From the NCBI GenBank assembly GCA_905618895.1, contig CAJQTA010000063.1, forward strand, positions 1 through 33,912: 33,912 bases of DNA, in the 5' to 3' direction. The number at the start of each line of letters is the position of its first letter. Position 1 is the first letter of the stretch. Shown piece after piece: positions 768-2,080 of the stretch. This DNA comes from an uncultured Candidatus Pelagibacter sp. Lineage in GTDB: Bacteria > Pseudomonadota > Alphaproteobacteria > Pelagibacterales > Pelagibacteraceae. Both the position numbers and the translations under genes were made by a program. Under the pieces are notes generated by a model. It worked only from the letters and a program-made list of their open reading frames with translations, did not search any database and was not told where the DNA came from.

Positions 768-1844
768 CTAAGCCTTATCTCCATATTCAGTCATATGTTT
801 GGGAATTCTTTTATTTTTTCCATACATAAAATGATTTTCCATATTTTCTCTATATTTGCTTGCAGGTACTTTTAATCCTACAGATTCAGCAATCTCTCTA
901 ATTAACATTGGATTAGCTCCACAACACACTCCAAGGTAATTTATACCTAAATCATTTGCTGTTTTTGCAAATTGTCCAACTTCATATCTGTTGCAAAAAT
1001 GTGGATCTAATGCTGTTGGAAATGTTCTTCCATGTGGTGATGGGCACTGACAGTTACTTCTATCCGGTAGGTTAAAAAATGTTGGATAATCTTCACTTGT
1101 TCTATACGGAATAGGTAGAGCACCTACATGACACTTCACAGCTTTTCTTATCTCCTTTAAAAAAGGAAGCATCGTTGAAGGACCTCTAAAACAATTTAAA
1201 CCAACTACATCTGCACCTAGTTGCTCTAACTCCTTACAAGTATCTACTACAGATTTTCCATCTCTCATTACATTTTCACCCATTGGAGAAATTGTTAGAA
1301 CTGTTGGTAGGCCTGTTTTCTTCATTATCTCTAATGCTTTAAATGCTTCTTCTGCATAATAGAAAGTTTCACCAATCAACATGTCTGCACCTTCCTCAAC
1401 AGCCCATCCAATCATTTCAAAAAACATAGACTCAACTACTTTTTGAGATTCTTTATCATTGTGCTTCCAAATATTTGAGTTTGAAATATTACCTGCCATT
1501 AAATTAGGCCTACTTCCTTGATTGAAGTGTCGCTTTGGTGAATCTACTGCAACCTTTTTTGCGATTTTTAACGCTGAACGATTTAAAGGTTCAAGAAGTT
1601 CCTCTTTACCAATAACACGCATTTTTTCTCTATGTCCATTATAAGTAAAGGCCTCAACAATATCTGAACCCGCATGTTGAAATTCTCTATGCAAATTCTC
1701 TAAGACCTCCGGATGGTCCAACGACACCATTGGAACAAATTCTCCAGATGCCATGTAACCACGCCTTTCTATTTCAAATAAAAAACCTTCAGCGCATATA
1801 ACAGGTCCATTATCTAATCTTTCTTTTAATCTATTTGTGCTCAT
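768..1844 (-). CDS. bhmT: Betaine--homocysteine S-methyltransferase
   Basis: A 358-residue homocysteine S-methyltransferase-fold protein, predicted to move a methyl group from glycine betaine (or a related donor) to homocysteine, giving methionine and dimethylglycine. The zinc and thiol binding set is visible: C218 in GLNCFRG and the pair C307-C308 in GVCCGANP. An N-terminal E-G-F-L-F-E-I-E-R-R-G segment follows the barrel start. This fold class also includes B12-independent MetE-like mini enzymes and other donors, but length and motifs fit the BHMT group found in SAR11. The ATG at 1844 has GGAG seven bases upstream, and that GGAG is inside a perfect hairpin (see 1846-1874). The leader carries two SAM-binding riboswitch candidates, which fits a methionine-making enzyme switched off by SAM. 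The start overlaps a 24-codon upstream ORF by 14 bases. Confidence 0.9.
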   Translation of the reverse strand: MSTNRLKERLDNGPVICAEGFLFEIERRGYMASGEFVPMVSLDHPEVLENLHREFQHAGSDIVEAFTYNGHREKMRVIGKEELLEPLNRSALKIAKKVAVDSPKRHFNQGSRPNLMAGNISNSNIWKHNDKESQKVVESMFFEMIGWAVEEGADMLIGETFYYAEEAFKALEIMKKTGLPTVLTISPMGENVMRDGKSVVDTCKELEQLGADVVGLNCFRGPSTMLPFLKEIRKAVKCHVGALPIPYRTSEDYPTFFNLPDRSNCQCPSPHGRTFPTALDPHFCNRYEVGQFAKTANDLGINYLGVCCGANPMLIREIAESVGLKVPASKYRENMENHFMYGKNKRIPKHMTEYGDKA

Positions 1845-1905
1845 TTTTTTTCTCCAAGTTTTTTGGAGAAAAAAGGTAACGTTTTAACAAGAGGGTTAAG
1901 TTCAT
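1831..1905 (-). CDS. 24-codon upstream ORF in the bhmT leader
   Basis: ATG at 1905, stop TAG at 1833-1831. The peptide begins MNLTLLLKRYLFSPKN and ends LEKKNEHK. It starts 11 bases after the GGAG that ends the SAM-V aptamer candidate, so that ribosome-binding site serves this ORF rather than bhmT, whose ATG is about 70 bases further on in a different frame. The ORF runs through the hairpin that hides the bhmT ribosome-binding site and stops 14 bases inside bhmT, the usual geometry for translational coupling. The peptide has no Met run and no recognisable domain, so it probably acts through being translated rather than as a product. Expression is inferred from layout only. Confidence 0.5.
   Translation of the reverse strand: MNLTLLLKRYLFSPKNLEKKNEHK
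1846..1874 (-). promoter_or_regulatory. Hairpin hiding the bhmT ribosome-binding site
   Basis: A perfect 12-bp inverted repeat: 1846-1857 pairs with 1863-1874 around a 5-base loop (1858-1862). In the minus-strand RNA the 3' arm is UUGGAGAAAAAA, which holds the GGAG used by bhmT. When folded it should block bhmT initiation. It is followed by A residues and then the start codon, not by U residues, so it is not a minus-strand terminator. A ribosome translating the upstream ORF (1905-1831) would melt it. Confidence 0.65.
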
Positions 1906-1916
1906 AGGCCTCTTTT

Positions 1917-1970
1917 CTCCTTTTTAGTGCTTAAGCAAATGCAGGGTGCACAATACAGTTCAAATACCCG
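1917..1970 (-). promoter_or_regulatory. SAM-V riboswitch aptamer (second SAM aptamer of the tandem)
   Basis: Minus-strand RNA contains a stem GGGU (1969-1966) with ACCC (1947-1944). Its loop, UUUGAACUGUAUUGUGC, resembles the SAM-II/SAM-V binding loop. A pseudoknot pairs GUGC (1951-1948) with GCAC (1930-1927), which is followed directly by UAAAAA and GGAG (1920-1917). The core matches the SAM-V class known from marine bacteria, which shares the SAM-II ligand core and ends in a Shine-Dalgarno sequence, so ligand binding should block ribosome access. The blocked site lies before the 24-codon upstream ORF. It could also be read as a divergent second SAM-II aptamer. Confidence 0.8.
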
Positions 1971-1990: not shown

Positions 1991-2035
1991 AAAAAAAAAC
2001 CACCGACTAAAGCGATGGTTGAAGTGTCGCTTTAG
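1991..2035 (-). terminator. Riboswitch-controlled terminator/antiterminator
   Basis: Two exclusive folds are visible on the minus strand. The antiterminator is a perfect 9-bp pairing of CUAAAGCGA (2035-2027) with UCGCUUUAG (2015-2007). The terminator pairs AACCAUCG (2020-2013) with CGGUGGUU (2005-1998) around a 7-base loop, with one U-G pair, and runs into a U-tract (1999-1991). The 2013-2015 bases belong to both stems. The 5' arm of the antiterminator is the 3' edge of the SAM-II aptamer, so SAM binding should withhold it and favour termination. Confidence 0.75.
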
Positions 2036-2080
2036 CAGGATTTATAAAGCGCTCCGCAATTTAACTTAAATCAGCGCTAT
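2027..2080 (-). promoter_or_regulatory. SAM-II riboswitch aptamer upstream of bhmT
   Basis: Minus-strand RNA reads AGCGCU-GAUUUAA, then a U/A-rich loop, then UUGCGG-AGCGCU, followed by UUAUAAAUCCUGCUAAAGC. P1 is the AGCGCU/AGCGCU pair, the loop starts with the SAM-II signature GAUUUAA, and the pseudoknot P2 can pair GCGG (2057-2054) with CUGC (2038-2035) next to the conserved GCUAAA. This is the SAM-II layout typical of alphaproteobacterial methionine genes. It is placed right at the expected RNA 5' end and upstream of a SAM-V-like aptamer; a SAM-II/SAM-V tandem before bhmT has been reported in SAR11. Confidence 0.88.

Follow-up and report, generated by a model that had tools for sequence, protein, structure and literature searches.

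A possible strand-swap link between a SAM-V riboswitch and a distant bhmT start site in Pelagibacter

The bhmT leader and its relatives

We have examined the leader of bhmT, the gene for betaine-homocysteine methyltransferase, in 33,912 nucleotides (nt) of DNA from an uncultured Candidatus Pelagibacter sp. (contig CAJQTA010000063.1 of assembly GCA_905618895.1; this whole stretch is referred to as the window), where an S-adenosylmethionine (SAM) riboswitch of the SAM-V class precedes the gene. Read 5' to 3' on the minus strand, the leader presents a SAM-II-like element (approximately 2078-2027), a terminator-like hairpin (2018-1991), the SAM-V aptamer (1978-1914) and the bhmT initiator ATG at 1844. 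A preliminary description of the same DNA, made from its letters alone, had drawn attention to a short upstream open reading frame (uORF) between SAM-V and bhmT. The features on which the argument depends are the following.

768..1844, minus strand: bhmT, betaine-homocysteine methyltransferase, 358 amino acids; from the list of open reading frames (ORFs), with the name taken from the preliminary description and from the bhmT of Pelagibacter ubique HTCC1062 (PMC2704228)
1914..1978, minus strand: SAM-V aptamer, RF01826, 83.1 bits against a gathering score of 41
1909..1920, minus strand: strand A, GGAGAAAAGAGG, the Shine-Dalgarno (SD) strand of SAM-V and proposed switch strand (anti-anti-SD); 12 base pairs (bp) with B, duplex of -18.9 kcal/mol, covariation
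1865..1876, minus strand: strand B, CCUUUUUUCUCC, the proposed shared anti-SD, able to pair with A or C; from pairing and covariation
1846..1857, minus strand: strand C, UUGGAGAAAAAA, which holds the bhmT SD, GGAG at 1855-1852; 12-bp hairpin with 1874-1863
1831..1905, minus strand: the 24-codon uORF, MNLTLLLKRYLFSPKNLEKKNEHK; from the ORF list, open in 30% of shuffles

The aptamer stands above the gathering score of its family, and SAM-V also preceded bhmT in 9 of 9 relatives that were scanned (59-84 bits). SAM-V has been described as a very simple switch that hides its own ribosome site. The usual, though not obligatory, trait of RF01826, an SD just 3' of the aptamer that serves the gene start, was not found here: the SAM-V GGAG occupies 1920-1917, with its first G 76 nt from the bhmT ATG (1844-1842), as against 3-10 nt in 30 leaders of relatives that we class as direct. 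The preliminary description had judged this SD too remote to serve bhmT directly, and the comparison bears it out; a relay of some kind is needed. It had, on the other hand, overlooked a second GGAG (1855-1852), proper to bhmT and spaced 7 nt from the ATG, the hairpin that contains it, and the complementarity of one strand of that hairpin to the SAM-V GGAG strand, both described below.

Relatives came from bhmT loci on named contigs, of which the 80 best among 313 were kept, and from genomes at the level of genus, family and order; in one search of these, 105 of 397 matched. For 30 loci and a further 36 places the leaders were retrieved. There were many matches of about 47-52% identity, for nine of which leaders were fetched. 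A strict leader pattern matched 76 of 113 records (three of the other 37 were deliberately skipped), and a wider pattern matched 123 of 165 loci (L001-L165). The 42 loci that the wider pattern did not match comprised SAR86-type and SAM-II-only leaders, truncated loci and nine loci of about 50% identity; it also passed over L004, entered by hand, and short-leader loci such as L069 and L079 that had fitted the strict pattern. Counting leaders that differ from SAM-V to the start of the conserved coding region, we obtained 87 SAM-V-bhmT leaders. In 30, classed as direct, 3-10 nt separate the SD from the start; measured between the first G and the ATG, 53 are extended (68-79 nt) and 4 long (131-141 nt). 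With L004, L166, L177 and L180 the extended leaders number 57, of which 54 are distinct between A and the ATG; 40 are of Pelagibacter type, 16 belong to genus g4 and one to g9, named contigs having been placed by similarity.

One relative, L084, encodes a BhmT 93% identical to that of the window. Its bhmT (1126234-1127292, minus strand) adjoins the HTCC1062 SAM-II/SAM-V intergenic region 1127293-1127553 listed in PMC2704228, and from these coordinates we infer that L084 is P. ubique HTCC1062. Binding of SAM has been shown for P. ubique metY and bhmT RNA (PMC6061858). SAM-V was detected at 17 places in nine genomes; the eight that do not lie before bhmT (four metY-like, three mmuM-like and one next to bhmT) all had the SD right before the start, and the second SAM-V in the window's own genome was also direct. 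A further SAM-V directly follows bhmT in L084 (1430-1494, minus strand) and in L006 (2566-2630), and the L084 copy (L206) is direct.

Alternative pairing of strands A, B and C

In the window, nucleotides 1920-1909 are complementary to 1876-1865 over 12 bp (A:B), and the predicted fold of 1914-1838 (-20.2 kcal/mol, z -4.6, none of 200 shuffles as stable) includes a 12-bp hairpin of 1874-1863 with 1857-1846 (B:C). We observed that A:B was formable in all 57 extended leaders (12-20 bp, mean -21.3 kcal/mol), as was B:C (6-12 bp, mean -12.1 kcal/mol), so that each leader holds two mutually exclusive helices sharing one strand. A bhmT GGAG or GAGG was present 3-8 nt before the ATG in each of the 57, and in 48 of them the exact repeat common to A and C was only 5-8 bases long.

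We propose, with a probability of roughly 0.7, that a strand-swap relay in which A and C compete for B links SAM-V to bhmT. SAM-V would not itself block the bhmT ribosome site, and its SD would have been converted into a switch strand, similar enough to C to compete for the shared B. When SAM is scarce, A would be free to capture B, leaving C open for translation of bhmT; with SAM bound, aptamer helix P2a would hold the first bases of A, and B, thus released, would pair with C and close the bhmT site. In some clades, a uORF begun at A might help to keep B off C. Formation of P2a with the first SD bases on SAM binding, the tail being free without SAM, is a structural proposal of Huang and Lilley (PMC6061858), and probing by selective 2'-hydroxyl acylation (SHAPE) with antisense primers placed the SD of the SAM-V domain among the SAM-protected parts (PMC11508383). 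Presumably, A:B is formed early enough in the cell and governs translation of bhmT. Expression of bhmT rises under sulfur shortage (PMC5069961), which agrees with the proposal in direction only.

Covariation was found in both helices, while some measures on one of the alignments (A1) did not exceed controls. A1 is a structure-blind MAFFT alignment of 37 leaders, and A3 is a covariance-model alignment fitted to A:B, with 53 rows at E<=0.001; an earlier model alignment, A2, which included 8 rows at E 0.26-0.77, was left unused. Both A1 and A3 misplace some leaders by one or two columns, which should lower their counts. On A1, A:B was 82.4% paired (53-67% when slid), with covariation of 0.298 as compared to 0.239 for shuffled columns, and B:C was 84.2% paired (59-68% when slid), with covariation of 0.299 as compared to 0.180; in either case 0 of 500 shuffles did as well. 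On A3, the corresponding values were 86.4% and 0.340 (0.191 shuffled) for A:B, and 87.8% and 0.230 (0.153) for B:C.

Distal A:B, that is, the part outside the GGAGA core, was also stronger when the two strands came from one leader than when they were swapped between leaders (37 leaders, none of 20000 permutations as good). Single-linkage clustering at 0.7 merged almost all leaders into 3 clusters and at 0.8 gave 10 clusters, with A:B at 11 of 20000; average linkage was then used, with one leader representing each cluster, and 108, 19 and 0 of 50000 permutations were as good with 7, 10 and 16 clusters, respectively. Over the 16 clusters, the own value was -9.68 and the cross value -6.00. In 28 of 37 leaders taken singly, distal A:B ranked among the best 5% of shuffles. 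B and C mostly changed in step in three groups of leaders (UUUUCUCC/GGAGAAAA, UCUUCUCC/GGAGAAGA and CUCUCUCC/GGAGAGAA), with exceptions such as L013 and L010, and a covariance model built from the 37 leaders detected g4 and g9 leaders on which it had not been trained (37-46 bits, E 4.8e-5 or lower).

As a stand-in for SAM, we barred the GGAG of A from pairing and refolded the 57 leaders. With A free, the SD in C had a mean predicted probability of 0.436 of being unpaired; this fell to 0.013 on blocking of GGAG and to 0.040 on blocking of GG alone, and stood at 0.429 when loop bases were blocked. Openness of this SD was lower on the GGAG block in 57 of 57 leaders, and by more than 0.2 in 33. 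Most leaders with an open bhmT site in the folding model have it closed once GG or GGAG of A is blocked.

Several observations weigh against the strand swap. The folding leaves out the pseudoknot and ribosomes, and in 24 of the 57 leaders the GGAG block shifted openness by 0.2 or less. C was predicted to be closed even with A free in the window (0.03), in L001 (0.00), in L003 (0.04) and in g4 (mean 0.11), and L180 was still half open when blocked (0.46). Also, in 14 of 37 leaders the A-B hairpin with GGAG blocked was still at least as stable as the B:C hairpin alone. On A1, the double-change pairs and pair types of A:B were not above shuffles, and its 35 double-change cells were fewer than those of two slid versions (47 and 39). 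The swap test was not significant for distal B:C (3977 of 20000), nor for A:B when only the 3 single-linkage clusters were used (3330 of 20000). The leaders in which distal A:B did not reach the top 5% of shuffles were that of the window itself (9%), L001 (66%), L002, L003, L004, L014, L017, L018 and L020. Since the window's predicted fold is closed with A free, the equilibrium model is without an ON state for it; there, as in L001, L003 and most g4 leaders, where B:C also prevails, the order of folding, a lower temperature or a ribosome translating the uORF would have to supply that state. Likewise, a proxy for ligand balance showed no visible drop in the window, which starts closed.

Other possible routes from SAM-V to bhmT

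The preliminary description had proposed a different relay, in which SAM-V would act on the uORF and bhmT would follow by translational coupling; in present terms, SAM-V would gate ribosome entry at A, translation of the uORF would unwind B:C, and ribosomes would restart at bhmT. Its measurements were exact: the uORF ATG lies 11 nt after the SAM-V GGAG, and the ORF runs for 24 codons to a TAG ending 14 nt inside bhmT. Taking as an ATG-uORF any ATG 3-16 nt after the SD whose ORF reaches the bhmT start, we found one in 26 of the 57 extended leaders, including 16/16 from g4, 10/40 of Pelagibacter type and 0/1 from g9 (14/14, 10/39 and 0/1, respectively, when each distinct A-to-ATG stretch is counted once). 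The check named in the preliminary description, conservation of the uORF in related leaders, went against it in the Pelagibacter-type set, 30 of whose 40 members lack the uORF. The ten bearers are the window, L001-L004, L084, L018, L019, L020 and L037. Within the window's own leader cluster, an ATG-uORF was present in 6 of 7; on a tree of BhmT proteins, L005 and L006, in which it is missing, fall together with the bearers L084 and L004 (support 97/82).

The reading frame of the window remained open in 608 of 2000 dinucleotide shuffles, and three g4 examples in 690-1080 of 2000; by simple count, 48 of 106 frames other than that of bhmT were open in 53 extended leaders. An excess of synonymous changes was sought in 15 g4 uORFs, where 3 of 16 variant codons were synonymous (4/17 and 2/17 in the other frames), and in 5 leaders of the window's group, where 3 of 12 were (4/11 and 0/12), and was found in neither set. 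Because the ORF of the window is open at chance level and shows no synonymous excess, it is weak evidence when taken alone. Its SD spacing of 11 nt is also outside the 3-10 nt of the 30 direct leaders, the spacing of the g4 uORFs being 6 nt.

Other observations favor coupling in particular groups. In 15 g4 leaders, the uORF frame was open in 15 of 15, and each of the other two frames contained a stop in 15 of 15. The long leaders L024, L054, L094 and L118 (the first two of which are close to each other) all carry an ORF of 44-48 codons, whose start lies 3 nt beyond the GGAG and whose end falls at -2 to +11 nt relative to the bhmT ATG; each was open in only 33-98 of 2000 shuffles, which makes these better uORF candidates than that of the window. 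In these four leaders, too, A finds a predicted pairing partner downstream (-17.3 to -18.7 kcal/mol). With A free, the SD in C was more closed in leaders that possess a uORF (mean unpaired 0.20, n=26) than in those that do not (0.63, n=31), although this association was not significant when tested by cluster (p 0.71, 0.42 and 0.15).

There is a precedent in the B12 riboswitch of Mycobacterium tuberculosis ppe2, which resembles the present case in its succession of riboswitch, short ORF and overlapping start; translation of the ppe2 uORF has been shown, whereas here the uORF is predicted and not generally conserved (PMC11260477). The preliminary description had remarked that it knew of no uORF relay for SAM-V, and none turned up in our literature search of partial texts either, coupling of a riboswitch to a uORF being known as such from the B12 system (PMC11260477). 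In the aggregate, the proposal did not survive as a general mechanism, given its presence in 10/40 Pelagibacter-type leaders, the missing coding signature and the SD that bhmT has of its own, and as the main explanation we consider it unlikely. What did survive is narrower: to judge from the sequences, the uORF relay is a serious candidate in the long-leader class, and uORF coupling may act in g4, in the long class and perhaps in the cluster to which the window's leader belongs. As for the leader examined here, the uORF relay is not its conserved mechanism but may assist in some clades.

A second alternative is that of ribosome standby, in which, at low SAM, the 30S subunit would bind the SAM-V SD (A) and start at the distant bhmT ATG. 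It has a model in the metA SAM-II leader of Sinorhizobium meliloti, where the riboswitch SD is required for a start 74 nt downstream (PMC9373788), a distance close to the 76 nt found here; the authors propose a standby role, and the metA leader differs in having a terminator between two AUGs (PMC9373788). Standby, however, would require no complementarity between B and A and would not call for the compensatory changes that we observed, and bhmT has an SD of its own in 57 of 57 extended leaders. We consider this explanation unlikely as well, and somewhat less probable than the uORF relay. We looked for leaders of the S. meliloti metA type among SAM-II loci at the level of the class; five leaders preceded a MetA-like frame, and none was recognized by eye as that type.

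A third alternative holds that the bhmT start carries no more than a hairpin, B:C, either constitutive or responsive to temperature, and that A:B is a by-product of the similarity between A and C. It begins from the GGAG-rich sequence common to those two strands, by which a B that fits C is bound to fit A in part, and it suits the window, where B:C dominates and 9% of shuffles match distal A:B. It is nevertheless the least probable of the three and very improbable in itself, because over the leaders distal A:B, which lies outside the part common with C, is long and covaries (-9.68 as compared to -6.00 over 16 clusters, 0 of 50000).

Leader types, known systems and the SAM-II-like element

The BhmT tree contained 74 proteins, 6 of them from g4; the uORF label was not given to the bearers L018, L019, L020 and L037. 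On this tree, the extended label (without uORF-labelled rows) required 12 changes and the direct label 10; starred branches make 10 and 8 of these, respectively, unavoidable. These repeated changes of label imply that the relay has been lost or gained often. In one instance the two states can be compared in sister loci: L080, which is extended, and L120/L157, which are direct, are sisters (support 100/95), and their leaders match to either side of a clean deletion, which lies between the AAAAGGAGAAG repeats of A and C. Long A/C repeats would make such a deletion easy. In L184-L187 (approximately 1380-1640), the SAM-II-like element, SAM-V, A and B are kept, with no frame exceeding 31 codons beginning within the 200 nt that follow; these are apparently relic leaders.

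Possibly, two interchangeable relays operate on one riboswitch tail, the one borne by RNA (A captures B) and the other by ribosomes (a uORF translated from A through B), which clades would trade for one another, and deletion between the A and C repeats would restore a plain SAM-V switch, as in L120 relative to L080. We regard this broader picture as tentative, and on balance doubtful.

The logic of a strand swap among anti-anti-SD, anti-SD and SD is common in translational riboswitches, for example that for thiamine pyrophosphate (TPP) in thiM. The switching proposed here follows the same three-strand logic, with the difference that the anti-anti-SD would be the aptamer's own SD, which serves the gene in other SAM-V leaders. 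The SAM-V switches of the metY type, which act by direct occlusion, have the same aptamer (RF01826) and the same SD at its 3' end and are OFF with SAM (PMC6061858, PMC2704228). In these, no more than ten nt typically separate the motif from a start codon (PMC2704228), whereas here the distance is 76 nt and the SD is proposed to be a pairing strand. The window holds, in a close relative, the same tandem SAM-II/SAM-V leader that has been studied for P. ubique bhmT (PMC9481103, PMC11508383), and the portions of those two accounts available to us do not mention a strand-swap platform. A literature search on SAM-V together with uORF, expression platform, anti-SD or bhmT, conducted on partial texts and with Poiata et al. 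2009 lying outside its coverage, yielded no description of a relay; as far as searched, the proposed strand swap is new for SAM-V.

The RNAs used in most SAM-V binding tests were short, 55 and 52 nt (PMC6061858). If the proposal is correct, the SAM-V leader of P. ubique bhmT works by way of an added strand swap that lies outside those short RNAs, and a riboswitch platform has been gained or lost repeatedly within SAR11. It would also put on offer an explanation in terms of RNA alone for the distant SD of S. meliloti metA.

Three further features of the leader are listed here.

2027..2078, minus strand: SAM-II-like aptamer, first of the tandem; aligned with the HTCC1062-like L084 and four others, with long invariant runs
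1991..2018, minus strand: terminator-like hairpin with a U-run, between SAM-II and SAM-V; from the alignment, read by eye
1884..1899, minus strand: small hairpin UUAAC-CCUCUU-GUUAA in the A-B loop; read by eye

A CCUC or CCCU motif occurs in the A-B loop of 49 of the 57 extended leaders, across genera (1895-1891 in the window). A third pairing, of A with this CCUC motif, was seen in the window's fold and was rejected, as it showed no covariation (own -4.31, cross -4.52; 13070 of 20000 permutations as good, 10 clusters).

Tandem arrangement of SAM-II and SAM-V is already known (PMC2704228, PMC9481103). The Rfam scan of the window returned no SAM-II even at E<=1, despite the long invariant runs common to the aligned relatives; weak rows for KRAS_3UTR and Ysr35 in the same scan were taken as chance. 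Among the nine scanned relatives, RF00521 (SAM-II) was found in two, below its gathering score of 36 (L131, 28.8 bits; L025, 25.5 bits). The bhmT leaders of SAR86-type marine gammaproteobacteria (L053, L055, L056 and L064, near 1350-1437) contain a SAM-II-like element of 27-30 bits, also below gathering, which may be an undescribed variant.
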